Origin: Bactericera cockerelli
Taxonomy: Eukaryota > Arthropoda > Insecta > Hemiptera > Triozidae
Direction of reading: 5' to 3'
Length of the DNA stretch: 64,000 bases
Assembly: GCA_024516035.1 (NCBI GenBank)
Contig: CM044964.1
Span: 24,249,956-24,313,955, forward strand
Part shown: in pieces, positions 25,869 to 53,360 of the stretch
Layout of the letters: the number at the start of each line of letters is the position of its first letter
Numbering within the stretch: position 1 is the stretch's first letter
Notes under the pieces: generated by a model
Database searches by the model: none
What the model saw: only the letters and a program-made list of their open reading frames with translations
Told to the model about the DNA's origin: nothing
Position numbers and translations under genes: made by a program

Positions 25869-28800
25869 CCCGATGTTGATCATCGCCAGCTACGAGCTGT
25901 TGGACTACGGCCCCATCTGTCTCACCCAGGCTGACACCCCCTGGCGCGTCTTCTTCTTCGCCACCTCCATCGTGGTCTTCTACGTCATCCCCTGCGTCAT
26001 CCTCATCATCCTCTACTCCATGATCTCCAAGAACCTCATGAAACCCACCCCCGGACTTGTGCAGACATCCTCCGCGTCGCTCCGCTATCGCAAACAGGTC
26101 ATTCTCATGTTGGGAACCGTCGTCATCAGCTTCTTCGTCTTGCTCCTGCCATTCCGCTTGATCACTCTCTTCATCATTTTTGTCCCGACCGAGATCTTTA
26201 TGAACTGGTTTGTCAAAAACTACAACGTCTATCTCGTCATTCTCTATTCCTCCCGCATACTGATCTATCTCAACTCCGCCATCAATCCCATTCTCTACAA
26301 CCTCATGTCGAGCAAGTTTCGCACGGGCTTTTACAAGTTGTTCATGATTAACAACCGGTTCCTGTGCGCTTCCCTGTTCTGCACTCAGAGCGTGAGTCGG
26401 AGGAACACGATGACCAGCTCTCTGGTAACGACAACGACGACCAATGTGACGTCATCCAGCGTGATCAAACACCAGTACTCGATCTCAAGCGTGCATTCGA
26501 CTCAGTCCCATAGTGTTTCAGCAAGAAAACATGCCAGGCATAGTGTTGTAAAGACTTCTTCCAATAGAGTTTGCACGGATGATAAACTGGATGGAAGCAA
26601 AAGACATCACTGTCACTATTGTAGCAAGCAGATTCATGTTAATATTGAAGATTTGACTAAAGATTCAGAAGATGATGTGGACTGCAGTAGATTTGTGAAA
26701 AATGGAAAACGGGAATGTGATATTGCAAGGGAAAGTTGTTCGAGCGGTGATGATGAAATTATGAACCATTTGACACCGAACCATTTGTTTGAATCTTTTG
26801 AAGAGACTAGCCCGTCAAGTGGGAAAAGAGCGATAGCTTACCCAAATTGTCCTGTTTGTAAAATATTCAATAAGTTTGTAAATGTAAATAGTACGTGTGA
26901 GTTTATTGCTAGAAAGAAGTGCTCAGAACATGAACATGATGAAGCTGTGAAATGTAAAAGAAGTTCAAACATACTAAGTGTTAATTTAGAAACTCCATCG
27001 CTTCTCGATAACAATGAAGAAAGGAGTGATCAATTGAAAAATCTTGACGTTCGCGTTGGTGAAAGTTCTATAAATATACTCTTAAATGACAAAGTAGATC
27101 AAAATAATGTACATATCGATAGGATGAATGTAGATGTAAATAATTCACAACCAATTTTAAGAACAAGGCTTATGAAAGTTAGTATAGCTAAATCTGAAAT
27201 ACATGACATCAATCCATCAGACTTTGACCAAATATCAAAGAAATCTGTATCATGTAAGAACGACAAGAAAATACTTAGACGACGCTCAACATATGATTTG
27301 TTTGTAGATAAAATATGTAGCAAAAAGTTGAAGGGAATGACAAATAATTCAGGAGAGCACAGTGATTATTACCTGTATCAGAACTTTTCTAAACTTGGTG
27401 TTGAAAAAGTCAAACCACTGAAAGCTGTAAGCTTGGACAATGATAACCAAGTGGTCAATACTCATAAAATCTGTAAGGAAATGTCGGAAGAAAAATTTGT
27501 TAAGATTCACAATAGGAATAAATCAATTGATGAAGAGTTTTATACAAATTTTCAACAAAATACTCATAAAACCCAAGACCATGACTTAATCAATCACAAC
27601 CAATGTAAACAGCCTTCAGAAAGGGACATGTATCTCTATAAAAAGGATATCAATAACTATGTTAACTTTGAATTAATTAATCAAGGGCTCTTAGATAAAT
27701 TGAAACAAAAAAATATTGGACACTCTGTGTCTTTACATGATAGCTTTAGGAGTCAAAATGGAACGTGCTACAGCTGTCTTGAATATCCTTGTTCTTGTCA
27801 AACAGAAATTGAAAAATGGAAGAGTAAAAATGAAGCAAATAAACAAACATATGCCGGTAGAATTCTAAATTTTAAAACCCAACGTCAATCAATAGACCTG
27901 GATGACATTGATAAAACATATTTTGATGAAATAGAAATACCAGAGGAAAAATATGACCAGAGAAAACCATCACAAATTGAGTCTAAAAATTATTATATCC
28001 TAAAGAACGGTCAAACATATCATAAAACGGATTTCCAAGAAATTCGAAGAGACACCAATGTACGAAATTCAAAAAGTGATGAAAAACTCGATAAACTTCA
28101 AAACCAAACTATAACATTAGGAGAAACAAACGGTATAGATAATCTCAGCCGATTCAGAAATCAACTTGAAACATTAGAAACAAAGAATAAAGTTCAAGAA
28201 AACGATAATGTGGACCGTCAAGTCTATTTTTCCTCCCACAACACAACTGCTCAAATATGTTCAAAGTGCTCAAACAAGAATAAAAAAATAATAAGGCGGA
28301 AATCGTTCGACCTCAGCATGTACAACAGCAGAAAAAAACTACAGTACGAAAAATATTCCCAGTTGGGACAAGCAAAACAAGATGACGTGACTCGTAGGAA
28401 ATCCTGCGATTTTGAACAGATCGTCCAAGAGAACTGTCACCAGAAAAGAATAGACAATTTTCATGCAATGTCATCATCGAAGAAACGAGCATCAAGGTCC
28501 TGGTCCAACGAATCACTAGCTGACAGAGACCTTTGCAGCATTTTTGAAAACCCCATGACTGCATATCATTCGCTTCATGAAGAAAGACTTGAAATGTTAC
28601 AGGGACTAAACGGTAGATCAAATAGTGTAACCAAAGACATCGCTGATCTAGTGGACTTTAGAATAATTGGAAACAGGGATTCTGACAAATTTGATCGCGC
28701 AAATTCACCTAACAATGACCCAGTGGATTACAAAATTGGAAAATGGGATTCCAAACCTAATAGACCAATAGATAATCCGAGTTTCTTTGGTTTCAAAGAA

Positions 28801-29031
28801 CCTGATATACATATTTGGTCGAGTAAATCTCACGACGAAGAAATCCATTCAAGCTCGATCCAACAGAAAACAATAGAGGATGCTTTCGAAATCAAAAGTT
28901 CATCGAGTAGGATACCAGGTCTGTCCAAAGGATCAAAAAGAAAGCTCTATCATAGTCGATCATTCCATTCCGGCGCTGTTGAGGATACAGGGATTCAAGG
29001 ACGATACAAAAGGAGGTTAGACGATGAATAG
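25869..29031 (+). CDS. ETHR: ETHR-like GPCR, alternative terminal exon 2 (TM5-TM7 plus giant C-tail)
   Basis: Partial CDS: second terminal coding exon, homologous to 13324-16276 and in the same splice phase (AG at 25867-25868, one base completing a codon, then Pro). The frame from Met 25873 is 1052 residues. Loop-2 Cys16 is in ICLTQA; TM5 about 27-52; TM6 about 75-104 with VLLLPFR; TM7 about 118-142 with N-P-I-L-Y at 138-142; then SSKFRTGF. The tail (about 900 residues) repeats the CxxC theme (247/250, 326/329 and later pairs) and has three basic-Ser motifs: RRRSTYDL near 469, RRKSFDL near 808, RRKSCDF near 841. Known ETHR genes make two isoforms by choosing between two 3' exons encoding the later TM segments, which fits this pair; a tandem duplicate gene is the alternative. 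No TM1-TM4 exon was seen between the pair. The stop is 28 bp before a SINE. Confidence 0.8.
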
Positions 29032-32995: not shown

Positions 32996-35900
32996 ATGTC
33001 TCACACTACCGGGTGGTTCATCGCTGTTCTGTGCCTCGTCCTAACAGGTAAGTCAAACCAGATTTTACTTTGTAATTACATCTATTTATTACATTGAATT
33101 ATTACAAATTTTAATAATAGAATGTTACCCTTTCTCAAAGTTGAAAAATACCGTTCTGAGAAAGCGGAAATAAATTCTGGTATTTTTCAGGTTTTTCTAC
33201 CCTCCTGAGACCTGGGCATGTTTTCCCGAAAGTACTGATTTAGACCTGGATGTACTGTTAAAAGTACATAAGACAGATACTGCTTGAGTCCTCGGCATGT
33301 ATTCCAGAAAGTACTGATTAAGACCTGGTATACTTTTAAAAGTACATGGAATTTAAAAAATTCCCGACGGTTTTTGAGAGAAGATAGTAGTGTGAAGTGA
33401 AGTTGTCTTATGTACTTTTAAAAGCACATTCAGGTCTCAGGAGGCTACTCAGAAACGTCATCGGCTCAGAATTCAAGGCTACAAAATCTTCCGATGCCGG
33501 CGTCGATGGCGCGTTGAATGCAACGGTTCTTTTGGGATCACCGAAGTTAAGCAATGTCCAGCGAGGTGAAGACTTCGTGATGCTGGCATTCCGGCTCCAC
33601 CCAGGCTGGGTGAGGGTAATGTGGGTAGCAGGTTTGTGAGTTTCCTGCGAATGGAGCCTAACACCGCGGTCGTGATATGACCATGCAGTTGAAAACGACG
33701 TCAAAGCAAAAAATAAATTAAAAATAATACGACCGTTTTTTACGCCTGGTGGTTACCTTCAACTAAAGAGGAATAAAATTTCCATTATTAGGTTTTATTT
33801 ATTTAAAATACAAATTTGTTTAACTCATAGATAAAACACCTCCCGCATATATTATATCTGCTGTCCTCTTCATTGTTCCAAACACACTCGCTGCATTTCC
33901 AACCTGAACAGCCAAACTTATTCTTTGCATTAGGTAGGCTTTTGCTCTCTTCTCTCCTGTCACACATGCTATCCGCTCTCCCAACTCTTTTAAAAACTTC
34001 AATTCCATCTTTGCAAATTGGCCCCATAGTTTCAATAGCAACAGGTACAAAGTGATAATCTCTTGCAATATTTTGTTTGTATTAATTTGTCAAGTTTTTT
34101 TTTTCCTGTTATTTTTTTTTTTAAGCTTTATTAGGAGGACAAAGTACAATGGTAACAGTATAAAATTAAGAAAAGAAAAAAACAAACAAATGACAAAATA
34201 AATAAGTAAAAAAGAAAATAACAATAATGTCCTACCTAAAGGGCGGGGTTATTGCCTGTGGCAATCTCTTCCACCCAACCTTTTTTTTCTATTTTTCCTG
34301 CTATTTCAACTAAAGAGTATTACTATTCAATTCAATTCTTCACAGGTAACTCTTTGGCTGACAACTAAAGAGTATTATTATTCAATTCAATTCTTCACAG
34401 GTAACTCTTTGGCTGACAAATAAAGAGTAATATTATTCAATTCAATTCTTCACAGGTGACTCTTTGGCCGACAACTATCCGTCTACCGCGAACACCAAGA
34501 AGCCCTGTGCCCGACGCAAGAACACCATGATGGTCCAGGGACCTCTGTGCCAGTGGGACAACAACACCAACAGCTACTCGCCAGACTCTGTGGCGCTCTG
34601 CGGGGGGGACTACTATTCCGCCAAACGGGAGTGTCCCGAGTTCAACCAAGCCAGCTGCGAAAAGTGAGATTTTTTCGGAATTAATAGAGTAAAAAAGAAA
34701 TAGAGGAAATGTAAACAAATAAGATTTTTTTTCTGCTCCACATAGGAAAATAAACACATGATTATACTGTTGATATAACAATCTATATTAATTAGAATAT
34801 TATACTATAAAGCATGAAAATGCTCAAAAAGGGGCCCTGAGGTAATGTTACAAAACGGTTCCAGGGCCATCAAAATAAAGATCAGGAGGGGTTTTTTGGA
34901 GGGTAAAAACTCTTTCTTATATCCAGGCTCCACTGTACTTATGTATCTCCCTGTTCCTCTCAGGTACAAAGATATTCACTGCTGTAGACTCAGGTACAAG
35001 ACAACATGGAACACATGGATGTAATTCTCTTATATCCAGGCTCAACTGTACTTATGTATCTCCCTGTTCCTCTCAGGTACAAAGATATTCACTGCTGCAG
35101 ACTCAGGTACAAGACAGCATGGAACACCTGGATGTAATTCTCTTATATCCAGGCTCCACTGTACTTATGTATCTCCCTGTTCCTCTCAGGTACAAAGATA
35201 TTCACTGCTGCAGACTCAGGTACAAGACAAGATGGAACACGTGGATGTAATTCTCTTATATCCAGGCCCCACTGTACTTATGTACAGGGTGGGGCAAAAG
35301 TCTGGAAACCCCTGAATAACTTTCGAATGCCTTCTTCGGTAAACTTAAAATTTTGTACGGTAAACCGAGCTAATAAGACCTTCTTTTAGAGTGGGGTCGA
35401 TTTTTGTTACCGGCCCCCATGTCGGGGCCAGGGGGGCCATCTTCATTTTTTTAAATACGAACCCCCACCTTGCGATACATTTTTGGAAAAGTCTTCAAAT
35501 AAGAAATACATTGGTGCAAATTTTATTTTTTTAATATTATTTTTTTGCAAATGGCGTCCAACTTTGTGTATGCAGTAAAGTCTGGAAACCACTGAATATC
35601 TTTCGAAAAGACTTTCTCAGTAAATTTAAATTTGTGTACGGTAATCCTTGGTAATTAGACCTTTTATTAGAATTGGACCGATTTTTTTTTACTGGCCTCC
35701 ATGTCGGGGCCAGGGAGGTCAACTTCATTCTTTAAATACGAAACCCCACCTTGCGATACATTTTTGGAAATGTCTAATTACCCCGACTTACCGTGCACAA
35801 TTTAAATTAACTGAGAAAGCCCTTTCAAAATATATTCAGGGGTTTCCAGACTTTACTGCAAACACAGAGTTGGACGCCATTTGCAAACAGTTTAATATTA

Positions 35901-38856
35901 AAAAAATAAAATTTGCACCAATGTATTTCTTATTTAAAGACCTTTCCAAAAATGTATCGCAAGGTGGGGGTTCGTATTTAAAAAAATGAAGATGGCCCCC
36001 CTGGCCCCGACATGGGGGCCGGTAACAAAAATCGACCCCACTCTAAAAGGAGGTCTTATTAGCCCGGTTTACCTTACAAAATTTTAATTTTACCGAAGAA
36101 GCCATTCGAAAGTTATTCAGGGGTTTCCAGACTTTTGCCCCACCCTGTATAGTATAGTATAGTAGTGCTTTATTTAGACTGTCGGCTCGAGACAAGAAGT
36201 CCCATTACGCTAACAGTTTCTCCCTGTATCTCTTATGTATCTCCCTGTTCCTCTCAGGTACAAAGATATTCACTGCTGTAGACTCAGGTACAAGACAACT
36301 TGGAACACCTGGATGGAAGTGTACTACGCGAACCAGTACAAGCCCGGGGACTATCTGAAACCCGAGGACAATGTCTATGATGTAATAGAGATCCACCGCA
36401 AGGTGGATGACGATCACGAGAAGGACTTTGGAAAAGTCAACCAGCCCGACTACCCAGACAACGGTGAGTCCCATTTTGTGTCATTATTCAACACTTTATG
36501 TATACTTATAAAAGAGAGTTTCACTCACTGACTGACTCACTCACTCACTCACTGATTTATCCCTGTTTCTCCGAACTGGTAAGTCCTAGGAAGCTGAAAT
36601 TTGGTAGGTAGCTTTGTCTTATATTCTAGATGTGCAATAAGACGGGATTTTTCGAAATTCCCACTACAACACCTGCCATTGGCGAAAAAGGATTTTTTGC
36701 TTTGCGGGCCATGCCTCGGCCCCCAAAAAGGGGACGACAGCCCTCTAGTCTCTATATTATAAATGAGAAATATTTACGGGCTTTGTGTGTCCAAATTGCA
36801 GGAAACATACAAACTCAAATTAAACTCACCCATCTTGAGTGGGGCCGGCAATAGCCAGCATGACGAGGGTACGAATTTTTTTTTTTTTTAATTGGGGTTT
36901 AACGTCGCTTTCAACTGCCATGGTCAATTGGTCATATCACGACGGGGGTTTTACCCTCCATTCGCAGGAAACTCACAAACCTGCTACTCACATTGACCTC
37001 ACCCAGCCTGAGTGGGGCCGGGAAAAGCCAGCGTCACGAGAGTTAGAATTTGAATGGTCACCCATCCAAGTCTTAACCTAGCTGGATGTCGCTTAACTTC
37101 GGTGTTCTGAAGGGAACCGGTGTATTCAACATGCCATCGACGCTGGCTTAGGTACGAATTTGAATGATGAAATATTGTGTCACTTCTCGCCCATCAGAGA
37201 GGAGGCATACAACGGGATGGGCAAGCTACATCACAGACCACAAGTGTTTACAGTAGCTCCTGTTTCATGACTACGAAATAAAAAAGGCTGTGAAACACTA
37301 AAAAAAAAAAAAAAAAAAATGTGGAAGTAGGGAGTGCCGGAACTAACCAGCTACTCCGATTAACCTCCCTCACCCAGACTGAGTGGGGCCGGAAATAGCC
37401 AGCATCACAAGGCGAGGGTTGGATTTTGAATGGTTTTAAGAATACATTTATTTGTTGTTGTTGTAACCAGTTGGCCTAAAGCTGGAGAGAGAGATGGTCT
37501 TCAGCCAACTTAATTTGAAAAGTTGGCTCGTCCTGAACCAAATATTTCTTTGTGCGATCAACTACCATTAGAAGCTTTTTTTTTTCTCAAGACATTAATC
37601 CCTTGCGGAACTGCAAACTAGCCTGACTTGTTAGGGTCGGCTAGTTTAGGCTAGTCTGTCCCGGTAGCTCAGTGGTAAAGGCGGCACTCTGTGAATCCAA
37701 AGGTTCCAGAGGTCGCGGGTTCGAAACACAGTCGGGGCATGACAAGTTATCCTCCCATTTGGGATTTTTACCACATAATATTATGTCTTGAGCTTACTGC
37801 TCGAATAATGGGACTTTAATATCAGGCCTTATCAGGCAGTATTAATAAGGCGATATTATTATTATTATTATTATCTATTTATAGTCCTCGAGCGAGACAC
37901 TACATATTATATTCCGGGGTTAAGTGGCAGAAAATGCCTAAGGCATTAAAAATTAATATTGATCTTTATTATTATTTTTTCGTTCTACATACTTCTAAGT
38001 TTTTTTTAATATTGTTATTAATTCTTTGTTGATGATTGTTTTGTAAAAATAAATAAAGTGTAAATAAATAAAATAAATATTCCCTTTGTTTCAGTTCTCG
38101 ACCCTCAGGGGGCACGCGGTCTGAAATGGATCGACGTGAAAAGCCCGAAGAAGCACAACTTCACCGCCAAAGGCCCATTCTGCAAGGGCATGATTCAGGA
38201 CGCGCGTTGCACCGACTTGGATGAGCCGGGCACCAGCTATCGCTACCTCCGCGACAACTACCCCGAAGGTAGGGATGCCAATATCGAATCACAATATCGA
38301 TATTTATGATATCGATATTATCGAAAGCAAAGTATCGATATCCGATATTTATCGAAACGAAAATATCGATATTCCGATATATCGAACTTCGATATTTTTA
38401 TTTATTTAATAATTTCATTAGAACAGATGGAGATATAAGTTTAGCTTAGGACTTAGGTGTAGGTACTGTAGGTGTCACGCTATTAATTAGTCTTAAGTGC
38501 ATTGTGTTGTAGGTTATAGGTACCTGTACCTATCATATTAATTATTATTTTATTAATGCAATTACCTATAAATCATACATTACAATATTTCAGAAAATTA
38601 ATACAAAGCAACTTAAGACACGTGTTTTGTTCTTATTGGAACTCATCAGTATTTACAGTATTAAATGATTTTAACCTACAAAACAAGCAAATTTAATCCA
38701 TTTGGTGTGGGTATTCGATAAGGATATTTTTTTTTCGATACTATCGATATTATTTTTTTTTGTTTATTTTATATACGGTATAATTGTCAGTTATTGCTGG
38801 GGATTATGGCTGTAGGTAGTAATACTTGCAACCTCATCTCCAGTGTAGACATATAT

Positions 38857-38891
<35 letters not shown>

Positions 38892-39322
38892 TATCGGAAC
38901 CTCAGTATCGATACCAAATATCGATAATATCGGATCCAAATTATCGATATTTCAAAATATCGATATACCTAATATTGACATCCCTACCCGAAGGTTTCGA
39001 TCCGAGCTGCAACATTCCCCGAACCGCCTACGAAAACCAGATTCGGGCGACCATCAAGATCACGTACGAGTCCGCCTGTCGGGATGCGCTCGTCAGCAAA
39101 ACCAAAGTCCCCACCTGCACCGTCTACTATCGGAGGAACGGGGTGCCCAAGGACAACAACAAAGACACAGCCATCACCAGTTTCATTTTCATGGAGGCGC
39201 AATTGATCTTCGACGAGAAAGGGAACCTCAAATTGCGCTATGCGTACTGGAACATCGAAGATGCCGAGATACGGGATCTTATATTCAAGGATAAAGATTG
39301 GTACATGGGCCCTGGGTTGTAG
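32996..39322 (+). CDS. Unrecognised secreted cysteine-rich protein, copy 1 (exon 4 carries a transposon)
   Basis: Spliced gene: exons 32996-33047, 34456-34663, 36258-36463, 38095-38268 and 38994-39322 (969 nt, 322 residues). The first exon is a signal peptide (MSHTTGWFIAVLCLVLTG). Donors GTAAGT, GTGAGA and GTGAGT and acceptors after CACAG, CTCAG and TTCAG give phases 1, 2, 1. The mature part has 12 Cys, including an H-C-C-R motif in exon 3, and motifs NQYKPGDYL, IEIHRKVD, DPQGARGLKW and YAYWNIED. In the paralogue at 46705-51785 the fourth exon is continuous; here a 717-bp element (38270-38986) splits it at P-E-G-F-D. If the insert is spliced out, the frame is intact; otherwise this copy is broken. 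Exon 3 is preceded by three partial tandem copies of itself. I do not recognise the family. The signal peptide and even Cys number suggest an extracellular, disulfide-bonded protein. Confidence 0.75.
33190..33450. mobile_element. Small candidate MITE in intron 1 of the + secreted gene
   Basis: Inverted ends TCCTGAGACCTG (33203) and CAGGTCTCAGGAGG (33431), with internal repeats of AAAGTACTGATT(T/A)AGACCTGG and ACTTTTAAAAG. No ORF, target duplication unclear. Confidence 0.5.
33480..33716 (+). mobile_element. 5S-rRNA-derived SINE (SINE-F)
   Basis: GGCGCGTTGAATGCAACGGT then GGATCACCGAAGTTAAGCAA is 5S-like. Body CAGGCTGGGTGAGGGTAATG, tail GCGAATGGAGCC ... GATATGACCATGCAGTTG. In intron 1 of the + secreted gene. 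Confidence 0.85.
33803..34085 (-). pseudogene. Decayed retroelement ORF fragment
   Basis: The minus-strand frame carries LGERIACVTGEKRAKAYLMQ and RISLAVQVGNAASVFGT, resembling a block near the C-terminus of several LINE ORF2 proteins. It lies in intron 1 of the + secreted gene. A short piece of the same 3' end recurs at about 54145-54185. Confidence 0.5.
34118..34285 (-). repeat. Dispersed repeat K, copy 5
   Basis: TTTAAGCTTTATTAGGAGGA at left, GCAATCTCTTCCACCCAACC at right; intron 1 of the + secreted gene. Confidence 0.85.
34905..35275 (+). repeat. Three 113-bp tandem copies of intron end plus start of exon 3
   Basis: Each unit contains CTGTTCCTCTCAG and the first 58 bp of exon 3 of the + secreted gene, with acceptor-like junctions before 34964, 35077 and 35190. 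All three run straight into TAATTC instead of the exon's continuation. The true exon starts at 36258. Confidence 0.88.
35285..36147. mobile_element. 863-bp foldback Tc1/mariner-type element
   Basis: TA-flanked, with ends CAGGGTGGGGCAAAAGTCTG and its complement. The left outer arm (35285-35530) is repeated as a diverged direct copy (35575-35775), and the right arm (about 35770-36147) is the inverted copy, so nearly the whole element folds on itself. It lies in intron 2 of the + secreted gene, between the decoy exon copies and the true exon 3. Confidence 0.85.
36499..36748 (+). mobile_element. Diverged Helitron copy with adjoining second 5' end
   Basis: Same interior (GAAATTTGGTAGGTAGCTTT, GCAATAAGACGGGATTTTTC) with an eroded 5' part full of CACT repeats; 3' hairpin CCCC-AAAAA-GGGG and CTAG at 36745-36748. 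The following TCTCTATATTATAAATGAG (36749) looks like the 5' end of a second, truncated Helitron. Confidence 0.7.
36872..37150 (-). mobile_element. 5S-rRNA-derived SINE (SINE-F)
   Basis: On the minus strand: AATACACCGGTTC, CCGAAGTTAAGCGACATCCA and GACTTGGATGGGTGACCATT, the last two being near-canonical 5S rRNA, followed by body GGCTGGGTGAGGTCAATGTG. In intron 3 of the + secreted gene. Confidence 0.88.
37165..37318 (+). mobile_element. SINE-H 3' part
   Basis: ATTGTGTCACTTCTCGCCCA ... CACAGACCACAAGTGTTTAC ... GGCTGTGAAACACT then poly(A). Confidence 0.8.
37325..37440 (-). mobile_element. SINE-F body fragment
   Basis: Minus strand carries GTGATGCTGGCTATTTCCGG and CAGTCTGGGTGAGGGAGGTT without head or tail. 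Confidence 0.6.
37658..37875 (+). mobile_element. SINE-A, full length
   Basis: GTCCCGGTAGCTCAGTGGTA head, CGGGTTCGAAACACAG B box, (ATT)n tail. In intron 3 of the + secreted gene. Confidence 0.9.
38270..38986. mobile_element. hAT-like non-autonomous DNA transposon inside a coding exon
   Basis: 717 bp bounded by terminal inverted repeats TAGGGATG(C/T)CAATAT and flanked by a perfect 8-bp duplication CCCGAAGG (38262-38269 and 38987-38994). The subterminal regions are packed with ATATCGATAT motifs on both sides. An 8-bp duplication and this TIR type fit the hAT superfamily. There is no transposase ORF; internally there is an A28-type homopolymer near 38863-38888. A related terminus is at 53209-53300. 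Confidence 0.85.
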
Positions 39323-41365: not shown

Positions 41366-44347
41366 TCAACGCATCAGCTCTACATGGGCCACGCTCACCA
41401 CATCATTGAGTGTGCAGAAAAAAATATCAATACTACTAACTTTATTTCCAATGTTCTGCATTCTCTGGAGCGGGGAAAATTCACCGGTGTTGGTGTTTCT
41501 TTTATGGAGCTTGAACATGGTCGTTAACCTGGTGTTAGCACTTCTCACTCTGAAGTTTAGGTTACTAAGTAGTTCAGGGGAATATATTTGACCATTTACT
41601 ATTTTGTATAGAAAAGTGAGATCTGACATCCTTCTACGGTATTCCAGAGTGACAAAATCCTGAGAATGCATGATTTCATCATAGTTGTGGTTGATGATGG
41701 GAGTTTTTAATTTATATGCAAGCATTCTCAGGAAAGTTCGCTGAACAGCTTCTAAAGATGAAATGTGTATAGAATACTGAGGAGACCACACACTTGAGCA
41801 ATATTCTAAATGTGATCGGACATAAGCATAATATAAAATTTTGAGTGTATTTGGATTAGTAAAGTCTTTTGTTTGTCTAAAAAGGAATCCCAACATTTTA
41901 AATGCTTTTTTATTAATATTATTATAGTGAGAGTTAAATTTAAGGTTACGTTGGAATGTAACTCCTAAATCCTTTACTTCATTTACTCTATTCAGTGGGA
42001 TATCATTAATCTTATAGGTATATAGATAGGGATTTTTTTTATTGTAAAAGTTCATTATTTTACATTTCTCAATGTTCAGCTCCATAAGATTTTCCCTACA
42101 CCAGGAATGCAGAAGATCAAGGGTGTCCTGAAGTATGGCAGCCTCCCGCGACCCGCCAACTCTTATAGCTATTTTGAAGTCGTCGGCAAACAACCAGCCT
42201 CGTACTTCGGGGGGTAATATAGACACGATGTCATTAATAAAACACAAAAATAGAATTCCTGAGAGGTGTCCCCCCTGAATACAGCCTGAAGTTACGTCGA
42301 CTTCTTTGGAAAAATAATTTTTGCTAATAGCGATGTTACTCTGCCTATTTACCCTCACAATCTGTTTCCTGTTCTTGTGGAAGTCTTCAAGCCACAGTAA
42401 CAATTTACCTCCAACCCCTAATGCATTTAACTTGGATATAAGTAGGTTGTGATTTATTTTGTCGAAACATTTTGAAAAATCCGTAAGAATAACGTCCACC
42501 TGGCCACCATCATCAAGTACATGTGATATATATTCAGTGAATGAGATTAAGTTGGTGGCGGTGGAACGTTTTTTCATAAATCCGTGCTGGTTATCATTAA
42601 CAACATTAGATAAAACGGGGTACAGTTGACGAGAAACGAGATTTTCCAAAAGTTTGGGTACAATGGAGGTAATACTTACTGGGCGATAGTTTTTAACATT
42701 ATCGTTGTCACCAGATTTATAAATGGGGGTAATATAGGCTTTTTTCCATCTCTCCGGGAAAACTCCGGTATCAAGTGAGCGTTGGAATATAAGAGTTAGC
42801 GGAGCGGCTAGTACTGAGGCGCAAGATTTAAACAAAAGGGGAGAGACCTCATCCGGACCACGGCATGCATGTTTAGGTAACTTGCTTAAAAGTTGGAAGG
42901 TATCATTTACCGAGAGCTCAATACGCGTAATATTTATACATGTATTGAAATTATATTCTCTCTTGTCAGACGTGATACTAGAATAATTATGAGCAAAGTT
43001 CCTCGCAAATAAATCTGCTATGGATTTTGGATCTTGGCTGACCAAGTTATCTAGTCTCATAATTGAAGGAATGGCAGGACTTTTTTTCTTTGATGACAGA
43101 AAATTCCAAATTAGTTCTGGTTCATTCGTTATTTTATTTTCCATAGACTGAATATATGCATGGTAGTCGCGAGATGAAATATCTTTACATGTTTGTCTTA
43201 ATTGCTTAAATTGAAAATACATTTGACGACAACCCAGAGACTTATATTGTTTATGAATCCTTTTCTTCTCAAAAATTAGATTTTTCAATTCCGAACTGTA
43301 CCAACCTGGGAACCGAGATGTTTTGATTTTCCTTTCGGGTACATGAAGCTCAATACCTTTCAATAAATATAAATAAAATGCCTCCACAAGAGTATCTAAG
43401 TTTGAGTCGGGATTGAATTTGTCTCTATGACTGAGGTTTTCATATAGATAGGAGGAAAGCTTTGTATAATCAGCTTTTTTAAAATCTTTAAGGACTACAG
43501 TGGTATTGTCAATAGGTACTTTCTGACTCGTTAACTTTTTCGGGGAAATATTTATGAGCAATGCAGGGTGGTGAGTATCAAGTTTTATAATTTCGTCATC
43601 ACAGCGAGTTACCTTCAAAAGAGACGGATTATTTGTTAGTACTAAGTCTAAGACTGTATTATTTTTATTGGCAATAAAATTAAGCTGTGATAGCGCGTGT
43701 AATTCAAGAGAAGACGAGAAAACATCAGCTCCAGCACTATTTTTAACCATCGTCGGTTGACAAGTTGAAGGATCCCACACTATATTAGGGAGGTTATAAT
43801 CTCCGGTTAAAATGAAGTTTGTCTTGGGGAACTTTTGAAACATTTCGTCTAGAAGAAAAGTATATTTTAAATATTGTGAGGCTGGACTGTCTGGTGGTAT
43901 GTAAACAGTGCTTATAAGGAAATTCCTACTCTTGATTTTAAATTTCACTGTTAAAATCTCTAGGTTGTCTTGCTCATTAAGTTTAACATTAGAAGATTTT
44001 ATGCGTTTATTTATAGCTATTAAGACAGACCCACCCCTACCATTCCCACCATGATTCCTATCCAATCTGTATATTACATAGTTATCCATCCCCAATTCCG
44101 CACTGTTTATAGAAGCATTTAGCCAGGTCTCGGTGAAAACAACAATATCATAATCAAAAAGCGGTACATTGCAAACTAATGTGCGGAGCTTGGTCCTTAA
44201 TCCTCTGACATTTTGATAATAAATAGATGTACCTGATATATTCTTATTGGTTTTATTTATATTTATTAGATTAGTTGAATTTCTTTGTCTACAAGTGTTA
44301 AATCTAATTTCATTATCTTGCTCTGTTAATATATTCTTGTTGTACAA
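41366..44347 (-). CDS. LINE ORF2: AP-type endonuclease plus reverse transcriptase
   Basis: 993 residues as read from a TTG at 44347; the same frame stays open upstream to about 44525 and overlaps the ORF1 stop, so the true protein is longer. Endonuclease: QNVRGLRTK (45-53), FTETWLN (71-77), GRGGSVLIA (103-111), TGDYNLPNIVWD (181-192), DTHHPAL (257-263). Reverse transcriptase: AYITPIYKSGD (537-547), NYRPVSITS (553-561), TDFSKCFDKINH (622-633), SGCIQGGHLSGILF (687-700; family norm is nearer S-G-V-P-Q-G), catalytic LFADD (719-723). The C-terminal SHLEYCSSVWSP motif is typical of jockey/CR1-like proteins. No RNase H was seen. Function: target-primed reverse transcription of its own RNA. Confidence 0.92.
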   Translation of the reverse strand: MYNKNILTEQDNEIRFNTCRQRNSTNLININKTNKNISGTSIYYQNVRGLRTKLRTLVCNVPLFDYDIVVFTETWLNASINSAELGMDNYVIYRLDRNHGGNGRGGSVLIAINKRIKSSNVKLNEQDNLEILTVKFKIKSRNFLISTVYIPPDSPASQYLKYTFLLDEMFQKFPKTNFILTGDYNLPNIVWDPSTCQPTMVKNSAGADVFSSSLELHALSQLNFIANKNNTVLDLVLTNNPSLLKVTRCDDEIIKLDTHHPALLINISPKKLTSQKVPIDNTTVVLKDFKKADYTKLSSYLYENLSHRDKFNPDSNLDTLVEAFYLYLLKGIELHVPERKIKTSRFPGWYSSELKNLIFEKKRIHKQYKSLGCRQMYFQFKQLRQTCKDISSRDYHAYIQSMENKITNEPELIWNFLSSKKKSPAIPSIMRLDNLVSQDPKSIADLFARNFAHNYSSITSDKREYNFNTCINITRIELSVNDTFQLLSKLPKHACRGPDEVSPLLFKSCASVLAAPLTLIFQRSLDTGVFPERWKKAYITPIYKSGDNDNVKNYRPVSITSIVPKLLENLVSRQLYPVLSNVVNDNQHGFMKKRSTATNLISFTEYISHVLDDGGQVDVILTDFSKCFDKINHNLLISKLNALGVGGKLLLWLEDFHKNRKQIVRVNRQSNIAISKNYFSKEVDVTSGCIQGGHLSGILFLCFINDIVSILPPEVRGWLFADDFKIAIRVGGSREAAILQDTLDLLHSWCRENLMELNIEKCKIMNFYNKKNPYLYTYKINDIPLNRVNEVKDLGVTFQRNLKFNSHYNNINKKAFKMLGFLFRQTKDFTNPNTLKILYYAYVRSHLEYCSSVWSPQYSIHISSLEAVQRTFLRMLAYKLKTPIINHNYDEIMHSQDFVTLEYRRRMSDLTFLYKIVNGQIYSPELLSNLNFRVRSANTRLTTMFKLHKRNTNTGEFSPLQRMQNIGNKVSSIDIFFCTLNDVVSVAHVELMR

Positions 44348-46704: not shown

Positions 46705-49700
46705 TTAACTTTTTTTCTTCTTCTTCATCGATTTGTCACCATCAAGGTCACTGTCCATCCACGGCAACTTTGACAAACTTTTCCAATCTCTATCCTTAAA
46801 AATGAGGTCCCGTGTTCCGACGTCTTCAATATTCCAGTGCGCATATCGGACCGAGAACTGTCCAAATACATCTAAAATCAATTGAGACTCCAAGAAAATG
46901 AAATTTGTTACGGTCAACGCGTCGACGCCTGCAGGCACTCCGATTCTCCTGAAGAAGGTCGTGCAAGTGGGGACTCTTTTACCACTGCGATATTCAACAA
47001 CAGGTTCACCCAGGATCGCGTATCTACACTTGGACTCCGTGACAATTTCTATCTTCGCGCTGACCTCATCTTCGTAGGGGGTTCTCGGGATTTTGAACTT
47101 CGGATCAAACCCGTCGCGGTAGTTCTCGTGCAGATACCGGAAGCTGGTGCCCGGAATGTCCTCGTCCGTGCAGCGAAAGTCCGTGCCATTCTCACACAAG
47201 ACGCCGGCGCCCGTGCTGCTGGTAAAGTTATGCGGCTTCGGGTCTTTCACGACCATCCACTTGAGGCCACGCTTTCCCTGAGGATCCAGAACTGAAACAC
47301 GGAACCACATTTACGGACGGATTCAACCTGTCGCAATCTCTTCCACCCAACTAAGGGTAAGGTGGAAGAGATTGCCACAGGCAATAACCCCGCCCTTTAG
47401 GTAGGACATTATTGTTATTTTCTTTTTTTTACTTATTTATTTTGTCATTTGTTTGTTTGTTTGTTTTTTTTTCTTTTCTTCATTTTATACTGTTACCATT
47501 GTACTTTGTCCTCCTAATAAAGCTTAAAAAAAAACTTGTATAAGAGCAAGAATCGCACGAAGTCTACCCCTAGCAACTCCAACATTCGCAGATCCTTTAC
47601 ACTCATTTCCGGACTATCCTTTATAGAGCGTGCGATTCGCTCAGTGGTTCAGCACTCGCTTGCGATGCGGAAGGTCCCGGGTTCGAACCCACGTGCCGAC
47701 AAAAATTTGTATTCTTAATTTGGTTCCAATTGTTTGTAAGGGAGACCTTCCGGTGCGCTCGTGTTGACCCAGCACCTAATTGGGAAGTATTGTGTCACTT
47801 CTCGCCCATCAGAGGGGATGCATACTACGGGATGGGCAGGCTACAACACAGACCACAAGCGTAAAACGGCTGTAAAACACTCATAAAAAAATTCCGGACC
47901 AACTGTGAGTTTAAGTAAATGAAAATTATTATAAGCCGGCGTTGATAACACGTTGAATAGATCATTTCTTATTATGTCACTGAAGTTAAGCAACGTCCAG
48001 CAGTATCCAATGTCGATGGGACGTTCAATACCAGAATACTGCCTACAAACGGCTCCAAGATAAATGCTAATTTACATACATTGCCGGGTCTTCGGAGACT
48101 TATTGAGGATAGATCAGGCCGGCTGGTGGGTTTGTTAGTTGCTGGCGAATGGAGGGTATACCTCCCATATCGGATGACACAAAAAGAGAAGAAAATAATG
48201 TGACTCACCGTTGTTAGGGTAATCGGGCTGACTGACATTACCGAAGTCCTTGACGTATTCTGGATCAACCATGCGGTGAATCTCAATAATATCGTGAGTG
48301 TTGACCTCCGGATTCACGAAGAAGCCAGGTTTGTACTGGTTGGCATAGAACACCTCCATCCAAGTATTCCTCTTGGCATAGTATCGGAGCTTACACGAGT
48401 GATAGTCGTTCATTCTGAGAGGAAAATATGATAAACCAGATCATATGCATAGAAGTTTGCATAAGCTTAGGAGATAATATTAAGAAATATTATTATTGTA
48501 CAAATAAAAAGAACCATTTTTATTCAATTCAATTCTTTCTTTCTTTCAATTCAATGCAGTCAAATCTGGATATAAGAAGTTGTCATATTTCTGTTCATCA
48601 CAACTTAAAATCACTTCCGCCAGCGTCGCGCGTCGATGGCGCGTTGAATGCGCCGGTTCTCGTAGGATCACCGAAGTTGTACAACGTCCAGCGAGGTGAA
48701 GACTTCGTGATGCTGGCATTCCGACACAACCCAGTCTGGGTGGGGTCAATGTGGGTAGCAGGATTGTGAATTTCCTGCGATTGGGAGGTAAAAACCCCGT
48801 CACGATATGACCATGCAGTTTGAAAGCGACGTTAAACCCAATTTAAAATAAACTGGTGTGACATCGCACGACTTTATTTAACCCTTTGTCTGGTTGTGGT
48901 ATACTATTGAAACCACAGATTTAAGATTTTTTTTCGTAAACTTCCAGTGGTTTCAGCGTTATACCACTTCAGACGTAGCTTCTTTATACTCTTCTGTTAT
49001 CACTGATTTTTTTTTGTTACGCGCATGTGCGCCGTTTTTTTTTTTTTTTTTTTTTTTTATCAGATACCTATCATTCTCAAATGTCATTGGAAGTATGTTA
49101 TCAACAAAAAAATTTTTTTTGAATCAGCAGATTTCGAATTATGCCAGACAAAGGGTTAAAAAACAATTTAAAAAAAATAATACTTCTGCTTCTGAAAATA
49201 GTCTGGCCGGGGGACTATAAACAGGGAGTAGACCAGCATTCGCTTGGTTCTGGGGGCCCTTGTCAATTATTAGCCTCCTTGTAAAGACAGTGGTAGAAGT
49301 GCTCATTCCTCCAGTGTCAGCACATCTACCCTGAGTCATTCCTCCACTGTTTGGCTACCATCGTTCACGATTACGTCACCCTATGATAATAATACTTCCG
49401 TGTCCGTGAGACAGGTATTGATACCTAAATCACGGTAGTGAGAGGATTATATGGACGCCTAGATCCAATGTCTAGGCTCCTTTCATGTCCATTGATTCTA
49501 TTTGGTTTTAACGTCCTGACTTGAGGTAGACGGGACGGGGGCTTTACCCTCCATTAGCTGGGAATCGTAGCAGCTACCCACATTAACCTCACCCAGCCTG
49601 GGTAGGGCCGGAAATGCCCGTCTCACATGCACGGAGGAACAGAATTTTCTGTGTGAAAAATCTGCTCCGACCGGGAATCGAACTCAGGATCTCTGGACTA

Positions 49701-51785
49701 CGGGCAGTAGTCACAACCGTTACGCCACGGAGGCTGGCACCATATGATGATGATGACTTCTGATTTCTAATATTAGAAACTTATCGGAAGTAGCACAATC
49801 TTACAGCACGCAGCTTGCTTCGTTGAACTCCGGACACTCCTGCTTGAGGGCACCCCGACACAGCCCGAGGGAGTCAGCCGAGTAGTCCTTCGCCACTTCG
49901 TCCCACTCACACAGACGGCCTTGCGTCACGATGGCGTTCTTGCGACGCGCGCAGGGTTTCACGGTGTTGGCATTCGACGGATAGTTGTCGGCCACGGAAG
50001 AGGCTGTTAAAGAGGCAGATCAACCAAGTAAAAAAACACTGCCAATTATGGACACAATACTTCCTCGTGATTGTTTCACATTCTAAACACGTGCCAATTT
50101 TGAGATTTTATACAAAATTACTTGTATCTCCATAACGACTGAACCGATTTTCTTCAAATTTGTTTCAAATGGTAGAATATTGGATTTTCGGACAAAATTT
50201 CGGATTTTCTTAAATATCAGAGTCAAAATATAATTAATTAAAAATAAATATAAATATCCTATGTAAAACAATAATATGCATATACATACAAAATTTCATC
50301 AAAATCGGGTGTACCGTTCACGAGATATAAGCGTTTAAGTAAAAAGTTAGTGGTCAGGCGCATGGTCTCTTTCACCATGAACCGCTAGTACGAATTCGAT
50401 GAATTTAAAATGAGACCATCTACAGAATGTCTCCTAGATGTGTGCAAAATTTCATCAAAATCAGTCGAGTAGTTTCCGAGATTTGCGCGTTACAAGGAAT
50501 CGTTTTAACAGACCGACAGACGGACACAAAACCAAATTTGCTCAGGAGGTTATGAAACGTCCAGAAATATGAAAATAATTGAAATCGGAGCAAAAAAATA
50601 TTTTTTTTTACAAAAACGAACACAATACTTCCGATTTCTAATATTAGAAATTTATCGGAAGTAATATCGGCTATAAGGAAGGATAAGACCTCGCCTCAGA
50701 TGGATGGACCAATTGGAGGACGACCTGAAGGAGATGCAAGTCACTGGATGGGGAATGGGGATCCGCTGTCAAGGACCTGCTAATCTGGAGGAGAGTGGTT
50801 GAACAGGCTAAGGCCCACCCCGGGCTGTAGCGCCTATTGGTAAGGTAAGGTAAGGAAGGATATAGACAGTAAAAATATCGAGATCCCATTTTTGGATTTT
50901 CGCTTATACATATCTCAAGAACGCTACATCGTAAAAGCTTTGTGGGTATGTAGTACAAATAAAGCAAATAAAATTTGGGACACTTTTGATTCTATGCTAC
51001 TTTGAATAATTCCTTTATTTTCTGCGGCCGCCATGATGTAATGGTAACGCCTCTACCTCTCAATCAAAATATTGCCCGTTCATTACTCGGTCAGGAATAC
51101 ACGATTAGAAAATGACACTATAGGCTACAAACTAAAACTGGCGGCATAATGGGACTACCTGTCTTGCGCTGACAGTCTAAATAAAGCACTACTTATACTT
51201 ATAGGCTAAGAATAAGTGTAGAGTGCGTGAGAGACGATGCGGCCAATTCCTTTGGATACTTGTTCATGAGGGTGAGATAGTAAACATACTAAAAGTCCTG
51301 ACGTGTAGGATGGGAGGGAATAGAGTTAGGGGGGTAAAAGTGTTTCAGAATATATGTCCCATTTTGGGATTTTTGCTGATAATTCCAGAACGCTACTTTG
51401 TAAAAGCTTTGAATGCAGTACAATTAAAGCAAATAAAATTTGGGACAATTTTGATTCAATGCTACTTTGACAAATTCCTGACTGTTTTTGAGATATACGC
51501 TTGTAGAAAAGCAACTATCTCACCCTCCTGGAGTAATATGCTAACGAATTGGCTGCGTCACCTCACACATATTCTACACGGTCTTTGAAATCATTTATTA
51601 ATTAGACTACTAGTTATTTTATATTTTTTTCTTAATATCTACATCATTCGATAAAGCGATATGGAAGGTAGGTACTCCATTCACCAAATTAAATATCCAC
51701 ACAGATTATCGTTTAACATACCTGTTAGCATGAGGCACAGGAAAACATGATGGAGTGCAACGGACCATCTGGTAGAGTGATACAT
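46705..51785 (-). CDS. Unrecognised secreted cysteine-rich protein, copy 2 (intact)
   Basis: Spliced minus-strand gene: exons 51785-51722, 50003-49805, 48414-48209 and 47291-46705 (1056 nt, 351 residues). Exon 1 is a signal peptide (M-Y-H-S-T-R-W start, ending in L-M-L-T). Intron phases 1, 2, 1 equal those of the + copy at 32996-39322, and exon 3 is the same length (206 nt). Shared blocks include PCARRKN, ECPEFN, NTWMEV, YANQYKPG, DPQG.RGLKW, GFDP...IPRT, VPTC, AHWNIED and RDLIFKD. Differences: a Lys-rich C-terminal extension ending KKKKKS, an insertion near VEYRSGKR, and 10 rather than 12 Cys; the two missing ones (H-S-C-K and D-P-K-F here) may be partners in one lost disulfide. The two copies are convergent, so this is an inverted gene duplication, old enough for all introns to differ. 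Family unknown; function not assigned. Confidence 0.8.
47340..47535 (+). repeat. Dispersed repeat K (GGGTGGAAGAGATTGCC), copy 1
   Basis: TAAGGTGGAAGAGATTGCCA, AATAACCCCGCCCTTTAGGT, T-rich middle, end CTAATAAAGCTTAAAAA. About 200 bp with constant ends. Confidence 0.8.
47622..47892 (+). mobile_element. SINE-H (tRNA-like head), full length
   Basis: GTGCGATTCGCTCAGTGGTT head, CCCGGGTTCGAACCCACGTG B box, body GTGCTCGTGTTGACCCAGCA and CACTTCTCGCCCATCAGAGG, end GGCTGTAAAACACTC. In intron 3 of the minus-strand secreted gene. Confidence 0.82.
47936..48035 (+). mobile_element. Partial 5S-derived SINE
   Basis: GGCGTTGATAACACGTTGAA and TCACTGAAGTTAAGCAACGT; the body is missing or rearranged. A remnant GAATGGAGGG at 48149 may be its tail. 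Confidence 0.6.
48618..48850 (+). mobile_element. 5S-rRNA-derived SINE (SINE-F)
   Basis: GTTGAATGCGCCGGTTCTCG then GGATCACCGAAGTTGTACAA (5S-like), body TCTGGGTGGGGTCAATGTGG, tail CACGATATGACCATGCAG. In intron 2 of the minus-strand secreted gene. Confidence 0.85.
49206..49392 (+). repeat. Dispersed repeat G, copy 2
   Basis: GGGGGACTATAAACAGGGAG ... CTACCATCGTTCACGATTAC, with a partial internal duplication of CATTCCTCC(A)(C/G)TGT. Confidence 0.8.
49396..49738 (-). mobile_element. SINE-D, full length, second tail type
   Basis: Minus strand: AGCCTCCGTGGCGTAACGGT head at 49735, body GGCTGGGTGAGGTTAATGTG, GACATGAAAGGAGCCTAGAC tail. In intron 2/exon 2 flank of the minus-strand secreted gene, downstream of its exon 2 donor. 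Confidence 0.9.
49756..49792. repeat. 37-bp imperfect palindrome, copy 1
   Basis: ACTTCTGATTTCTAATATTA continuing GAAACTTATCGGAAGTA; it folds into one hairpin around TCTAATATTAGA. Lies 12 bp beyond the exon 2 donor of the minus-strand secreted gene. Confidence 0.7.
50060..50620 (+). repeat. Dispersed repeat, copy 1 (CGTTCACGAGATATAAGCG)
   Basis: Contains CAAAATTTCATCAAAATCGG, GTACCGTTCACGAGATATAA and GACCGACAGACGGACAC. A diverged second copy is at 53745-53980. Ends at a palindrome (50626). In intron 1 of the minus-strand secreted gene; family not recognised. Confidence 0.6.
50626..50663. repeat. 37-bp imperfect palindrome, copy 2
   Basis: TACTTCCGATTTCTAATATT continuing AGAAATTTATCGGAAGTA; nearly perfect self-complement. 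Confidence 0.75.
50665..50850 (+). pseudogene. Decayed LINE ORF2 C-terminus
   Basis: Translates to R-P-R-L-R-W-M-D-Q-L-E-D-D-L-K-E-M then a damaged stretch ending in V-V-E-Q-A-K-A-H-P-G-L-stop. This is the typical end of an RTE/R1-like LINE ORF2 (GRPRLRW ... HPGL). It is followed by GGTAAGGTAAGGTAAGG, a short-repeat tail. It lies in intron 1 of the minus-strand secreted gene. Confidence 0.65.
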
Positions 51786-53208: not shown

Positions 53209-53360
53209 CTTAGGGTTGCAATATCGAAACGAAAATATCGATATTAGGTATATCGATAATATCGAAACCATAATATCGATATCCGATATTAGAAGACTTC
53301 TCTCCCTTTACAATTCGATATTTCGTTACATAATATCGTTACATAATATCGTTACATAAT
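53209..53360. mobile_element. Fragment related to the hAT-like ATATCGAT element
   Basis: Begins TAGGGTTGCAATATCGAAAC and continues with several ATATCGATAT motifs, like the ends of the element at 38270-38986. It degenerates into four TTACATAAT(A/T)TCG-type short repeats. No clear second terminus. Confidence 0.6.

Follow-up and report, generated by a model that had tools for sequence, protein, structure and literature searches.

A hAT-like element family that probably acts as an introner in coding exons of Bactericera cockerelli

The DNA analysed here (the window) is a stretch of 64,000 nucleotides from the hemipteran Bactericera cockerelli (assembly GCA_024516035.1, contig CM044964.1, positions 24,249,956 to 24,313,955) with a G+C content of 36%. 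It contains a plus-strand gene for an apparently secreted protein, and coding exon 4 of this gene harbours a 717-bp hAT-like element. We conclude that the element belongs to a hAT-like family of miniature inverted-repeat transposable elements (MITEs) that very probably acts as an introner, with the predicted intron of the window gene as one of its products. The anatomy of the insertion, the family, its repeated insertion into exons at splice-ready sites and the intact reading frames are established. Judged by sequence, the exonic insertions supply donor and acceptor and restore the reading frame, and the spliceosome would use these sites in the window gene and in others.

Structure of the insertion and its host gene

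The sequence-only reading of the window had placed a 717-bp element between two target copies in the exon, and its coordinates proved exact (Table 1). The two target duplications (CCCGAAGG) match at 8 of 8 bases, and the 15-bp terminal inverted repeats (TIRs), TAGGGATGCCAATAT and TAGGGATGTCAATAT, match at 14 of 15. Deletion of 725 nt (38269-38993), as had been proposed, gives CCC-GAA-GGT-TTC-GAT, encoding P-E-G-F-D, and the frame then stays open to the stop codon at 39320-39322; with the element retained, the product stops after 226 residues. The predicted cuts (marked ^) are AAG^GTAGGG at the donor and CCCGAAG^G at the acceptor. The proposed geometry, in which one duplication gives the acceptor AG and the other, together with the element end, the donor GT, is exact. 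An AG-free zone of 86 nt precedes the acceptor, and CTAAT at 38969-38973 (plus strand), which we take to be a candidate branch point, has its A ~21 nt ahead of the acceptor AG. The window copy exceeds the 573-bp family consensus because it carries a 141-bp nested insert; most BLAST family matches stop near element position 477-486 and restart at 619. At 53211-53290 the window holds a segment 84% identical to the element's first 80 bp, with a TIR-like start, which appears to be a relict or truncated copy.

In the mechanism that we propose, the element would insert into a coding exon where the 8-bp target ends in the sense motif [A/C]AGG. The left target copy and the element's first base, T, would then form the donor ([A/C]AG^GTAGGG in most copies), and the right target copy would form the acceptor, CATCCCTA-NNNN[A/C]AG^G. 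Here the right-end TIR, read as CATCCCTA, would provide a pyrimidine-rich stretch that is followed by CYYS[A/C]AG of the duplication. Both ends of the family unit share the first 8 TIR bases, TAGGGATG, so that each end could serve as donor or as pyrimidine-rich stretch in either orientation. Removal of the element and one duplication copy by the spliceosome would yield an mRNA identical to that of the empty site, and a fourth intron would thereby have been added to the window gene.

A search of 5.8 billion proteins, with the exon of a paralogue as query and then with the protein P0001 itself, yielded P0001, a 322-residue product of an intron-less open reading frame (ORF) on a single 1038-bp contig. 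Its source label, 'lgn', presumably stands for Logan. The five exon parts assembled from the window (32996-39322) share 315 of 322 residues with P0001, and the alignment runs ungapped through the insertion site. Since the 1038-bp contig has no room for introns, P0001 looks like cDNA, suggesting that the host gene is transcribed in this animal or a close one. P0001 supports the predicted spliced product, not the splicing of the element itself. The search with P0001 returned only P0001 and a 32% relative, and the element-retaining 226-residue form was absent from it.

A single copy close to P0001 was found in the genome, and the next-best exon-4 match is 66% identical. The host gene family, with dozens of exon-4 matches, is apparently secreted; the exons tested, including the paralogue exon, gave no Pfam match over the cut-off. 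The paralogue exon had been described as uninterrupted, and it is indeed in one piece (47291-46705), as are 54 other family matches that span the insertion position, 3 of them with a stop codon. Within the window gene, 34962-35247 contains three tandem copies, 113 bp apart, of the exon 3 acceptor and first 20 codons. All three precede the real exon 3 (36258) and run straight into a TAA, so that they look like decoy partial exons.

The element family and its copies in coding exons

The genome searched comprises 565 Mb in 1032 contigs. It contains 91 exact matches to the TIR pattern TAGGGATGYCRATAT, and BLAST with the window element, in which 40 of 943 first-look candidates were scored, gave at least 95 matching pieces. 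Divergence from the consensus is 1.0-3.5% in 28 of 31 aligned copies and 6.6-13.3% in the other three. For the window copy it amounts to 14 differences in 546 sites, 5 of them private among 28 copies. Both ends and the duplication were resolved for 34 insertions, judged distinct by flanking sequence; the finder sought 8-bp duplications and a match of at least 6/8 was required, and 28 of the 34 are 8/8. Within this set, L025/L027/L031 probably represent one event, as do L076/L080. At 22 loci, several showing the same insertion, the finder detected no 8-bp duplication; some of these were resolved later.

The hAT-type 8-bp target-site duplication (TSD) is present in the 34 resolved insertions, and the TIRs fit (C/T)AGGG(A/G)TG, the type of the hAT superfamily. 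The label hAT-like given in the sequence-only reading was borne out to this extent, and no transposase partner could be tied to the ends. As no autonomous partner was found, hAT membership is assigned from TSD length and TIR form. The genome holds 145 matches to Dimer_Tnp_hAT. Two copies of more than 4 kb, at 7.59 Mb of contig C1 and 25.18 Mb of contig C2, looked promising as autonomous partners but were set aside: by eye, the ORFs of at least 100 residues in their ends read as unrelated nested sequence, one of them presumably reverse-transcriptase-like. The hAT transposase matches look crowded, by eye, in the first ~6 Mb of C1 and on contigs C88, C121 and C143, resembling a repeat-rich sex-chromosome-like or heterochromatic region. 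Pairs of elements on the same contig, ~0.15-0.7 Mb apart with matching or similar flanks and some inverted (L074/L079, L023/L024, L027/L031, L038/L039, L005/L007, L052/L054, L057/L059, L076/L080), could be uncollapsed haplotypes in the scaffold or real segmental duplications.

The duplications of the 34 insertions fall into three classes: 15 end in AGG in one orientation, all of these reading CAGG or AAGG, 5 contain AGGT inside and 14 have neither. Empty sites of the AGG class were translated in the AGG sense, and chosen ORFs, some trimmed, were run against Pfam at E up to 0.01. Ten copies were submitted, then L028, L043 and L080; L076, a likely duplicate of L080, was left out, and the window gene (L019) was judged by its paralogues. 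Recognisable coding sequence was present at the junction in 8 of the 15, with the splice motif in the sense direction each time (Table 1). As the Pfam stretch of L026, L036 and L079 starts at or downstream of the junction, support across it comes from relatives of solved structure. PDB relatives of Nup155 align across the junction with no gap near it, and the PDB alignments of cyclin E (E1), M1, Rictor and Nup160 cross it with gaps of 1-2 residues at or within ~6 residues. Absence of the intron from relatives or paralogues, a feature of introners, is thus seen at two levels: the paralogues of the window gene are continuous, and five other genes are colinear with PDB relatives at the protein level.

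Three later exonic copies (L003, L046 and L069/70) were found among those missed by the finder, partly by searching for MAGG before the TIR, and were not found blind. With them the genome search for other exonic copies, a check already named in the sequence-only reading, brought the coding-supported copies to 11, and 11 of 11 stand at [A/C]AG^G on the sense strand, seven in the same sense as the gene and four reversed. Recurrence of similar copies within a single genome, in different coding positions, is another introner feature and is seen here. MAGG precedes an exact TIR at 11 of 91 sites, and a reversed-pattern control gave 0 at up to one mismatch.

All 15 AGG-class copies have a donor [A/C]AG^GT continuing into the TIR, with GTAGGG in 12, and an acceptor [A/C]AG^G. 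In 14 of them the last upstream AG lies 39-194 nt from the acceptor, L041 being the exception; a branch point within that AG-free stretch would have its first downstream AG in the duplication. From the 14 insertions without a splice-competent duplication, 20 crossing ORFs were obtained (11 copies; three gave none), with no Pfam match. The difference between 7/15 AGG-class and 0/14 non-competent copies with Pfam matches is significant (Fisher p = 0.006).

By chance, ~2-3% of random coding positions (0.0227; 0.031 in host exons) would give a splice-competent duplication, so the single window case could be luck, but the genome-wide pattern could not. AGG occupies 0.018 of positions in host exons, and with this composition the chance of AGG in 8 of 8 is ~1e-14, or 9e-13 with internal AGGT allowed. 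An earlier null, built on 11,766 bases of partly presumed coding sequence that may be G+C-poorer than host exons, gave a smaller chance; it was redone on host exons (57% G+C), and the less extreme values are used. Had the eight frames been unconstrained since insertion, the joint chance of all staying open would be 0.004 to 0.00005, depending on the age measure, in a simulation with an assumed indel rate. The open frames support ongoing constraint, although not decisively. The interpretation of the window insertion as a predicted introner is supported.

Table 1. Coordinates of the window features and identity of the exonic copies (^, predicted cut)
Feature	Position	Strand	Remarks
Exon 1, ATG, signal-peptide-like start by eye	32996..33047	+	donor CAG^GTAAGT; reproduces P0001
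Exon 2	34456..34663	+	reproduces P0001
Exon 3	36258..36463	+	67 of 69 residues identical to P0001 in tblastn stretch
Exon 4 upstream of insertion	38095..38268	+	
Left target duplication CCCGAAGG	38262..38269	+	last G and the element's first T give predicted donor AAG^GTAGGG
Predicted new intron, 725 nt, GT...AG	38269..38993	+	sequence prediction
hAT-like non-autonomous element (MITE)	38270..38986	+	TIRs, 8-bp duplication, related family copies
Left TIR TAGGGATGCCAATAT	38270..38284	+	
Nested insert, 141 bp, poly-A-ended	38747..38887	+	skipped by other family matches
Right TIR TAGGGATGTCAATAT	38972..38986	-	intron sense ...CATCCCTA
Right target duplication CCCGAAGG	38987..38994	+	source of predicted acceptor CCCGAAG^G
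Exon 4 downstream of insertion, through stop	38994..39322	+	
Paralogue, similar four-part layout (first part weak match)	46705..51785	-	uninterrupted exon 4 at 47295-46705
L019, window gene			own family
L022, Nup160			Pfam Nup120/160 spans junction
L026, cyclin E			Cyclin_N match starts at junction
L029, DUF4779			Pfam match spans junction
L036, Nup155			Nucleoporin_C match starts downstream of junction
L042, Ig, weak, below Pfam cut-off			match spans junction
L068, Rictor			RICTOR_N match spans junction
L079, M1 aminopeptidase			Peptidase_M1 match starts downstream of junction
L003, I-set			later exonic copy
L046, carboxylesterase			later exonic copy; duplication 8/8, one extra base before right copy
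L069/70, MADF, 1701 bp			later exonic copy

Alternative explanations and choice of site

The window insertion might instead be an allele that is disruptive or polymorphic, with empty alleles as the source of functional mRNA and of P0001 and with the splice-ready duplication a coincidence. P0001 is compatible with a source without the element, a collapsed assembly would conceal a second, empty allele, and the frequency of splice-competent sites among random coding positions would allow a single case by chance. However, each of the 8 exonic copies from the systematic set shows this coincidence, the exon is intact on either side of the element, and an uninterrupted copy of the window gene itself was not found in the assembly. 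Moreover, the window copy, with its differences from the consensus and its nested insert, is not brand new. We therefore regard a disruptive allele as unlikely. Two findings make a pseudogene less plausible: P0001 matches through the insertion point, and in the assembly cyclin E and Nup155 were each found solely in interrupted form (a third, weak cyclin hit lies at another place and matches a cyclin domain at 42%). Loss of functional cyclin E or Nup155 would be expected to be lethal, so these copies must be spliced, or heterozygous with the other allele dropped by the assembly. A protein search with Nup155 residues 15-135 returned only P0003, a 45% relative, and so added no transcript from this animal. 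For the M1 gene, its contig carries another locus that apparently shares the insertion (L074, where the right end and duplication are seen and the left end is only a pattern hit).

Entry of the element into pre-existing introns near their ends, with no new intron made, would fit L030 and L077, which lie a few bases inside native-looking introns directly behind likely native GTGAGT donors (the genes are presumably DNA-ligase-like and MTHFD1-like, respectively), as well as L041 and L043, which by eye lie at likely native junctions. At the 11 coding-supported copies, in contrast, the duplications directly abut the element, with no remnant of another intron. The duplication copies agree at 7-8 of 8 bases in ten of the 11, and in L046 at 8/8 with one extra base; the window gene also has paralogues with a continuous exon 4. 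Thus, we consider pre-existing introns highly improbable as the general explanation. If the copies had spread not as transposing DNA but through reverse splicing of an excised intron RNA, they would lie at proto-splice sites, as the exonic ones do. Yet the bases ahead of each acceptor copy the local exon (the 8-bp duplication) and not a shared source intron, and motif-free copies also have ordinary 8-bp duplications, the 34 resolved copies having been chosen for having a duplication. Reverse splicing was rejected because the duplication copies the local exon, and we give it a negligible probability.

Several observations weigh against an introner family as the explanation. The case draws on DNA sequence, and P0001 does not separate splicing from an empty allele, because both yield the identical sequence. 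P0001 also differs from the window gene at 7 residues, which may reflect another allele or another species. The AAG acceptor of the window copy is weaker than CAG, and three AGG-class donors depart from GTAGGG (L036 GTACGG, L042 GTATTG, L079 GTGGGG). L041 and L043 appear, by eye, at native splice junctions and not mid-exon. L001, L028, L040, L041, L043 and L080 gave no Pfam match, leaving 7 of the 15 AGG-class copies (with L076) without a recognised domain. In the class with AGGT inside, which is likewise splice-competent, five ORFs from L005, L027 and L072, which do not represent every crossing ORF and leave out L025 and L031, had no Pfam match. Finally, no autonomous element with these ends was identified.

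The introner family, which we nevertheless favour, raises the question of how its copies come to lie at such sites. The 18 AGG-class duplications share C-Y-Y-S-[A/C]-A-G-G, and 15 of them have the first C; no clear preference at the remaining positions is seen among the other 19, from which a terminal AGG is absent by definition. The flanks of the AGG class are G+C-richer (median 0.59 vs 0.43, p = 0.007), and all 15 measured are at least 0.51. Flank G+C reaches 0.68-0.72 for L005 and L025/L027/L031, which have AGGT inside the duplication and may also be exonic. That the other copies are free of the motif points weakly to selection for splicing as its cause, the argument being weak because the classes were split on the motif. 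If survival alone operated, with ~1-3% of positions suitable, 11 exonic copies would need ~350-1000 exonic insertions, compared with the few dozen copies seen. These numbers argue for an additional preference during insertion, for exons or for sites of this type. Integration may thus be biased to exonic CYYS[A/C]AGG-type sites, making spliceable introns far above the random rate, a tentative proposal to which we give somewhat less than an even chance. If it is true, this would be a DNA transposon specialised for invisible gene insertion, with one symmetric TIR as donor and pyrimidine tract. Targeting and selection are not separated by these data.

Other window genes and relation to known systems

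The window also contains, at 13337-16276 and 25873-29031, two last exons resembling those of G protein-coupled receptors, each followed by an unusually long open tail of ~800-900 residues. The first matches Pfam 7tm_1 and Srw, with no receptor name; both presumably resemble ecdysis-triggering-hormone receptors. On the minus strand, 41366-44347 encodes a 993-residue endonuclease/reverse-transcriptase ORF, similar by Pfam to long interspersed nuclear elements and still open, between the two convergent paralogues.

Introners and the maize Ds precedent are known; new here is an animal hAT-like family, in both orientations and in core genes. In maize, Giroux et al. (1994) reportedly described a Ds insertion in shrunken2, a hAT element flanked by an 8-bp duplication, which is spliced out precisely so that the mRNA is restored; it is said to concern minor splicing of a single mutant allele in a plant. 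Ac/Ds repeats start with (C/T)AGGGATG. In contrast to maize Ds, the present family is multi-copy and kept in many genes of an animal. A literature search found no hAT introner family in an arthropod, a weak negative since most subscription papers were outside its reach.

PMC9860276 (presumably Gozashti et al. 2022) surveyed 835 genomes of animals and land plants and reports introners from no more than two groups of animals, with copepods named; the word hAT is absent from its main text. As described there, introners resemble the present family in being DNA elements of the non-autonomous kind that bear TSDs and TIRs and lie in coding sequence, in taking splice sites partly or wholly from the TSD with unchanged mRNA length in most families, and in a bias to GC-rich genic insertion. 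The present family differs in that it would work in both orientations through one symmetric TIR start. Recent intron gains in a crustacean, Daphnia (PMC4202315), in some cases have short direct repeats at their two ends, but they are ascribed there to double-strand break repair and not to a transposon family. In PMC3443670 (presumably Yenerall & Zhou 2012), transposon-based intron gain occurs at AGGT proto-splice sites, the duplicated target giving an AG^GT donor and an AG^G acceptor. The AGG class described here differs from this model in that it needs only AGG in the target, because the transposon provides the T of GT.

That article leaves open whether particular transposons preferentially make introns, and the present family would be a concrete case for this question. 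The origin of new introns is a long-standing question for which clear animal cases are few. As the copies in recognised coding sequence all carry the proto-splice motif and the non-competent copies are without domain match, targeting and selection would be separately testable. In addition, the predicted introns are roughly dated, mostly at 1-3.5% from the consensus, and would allow tracing of how a new intron is tuned.

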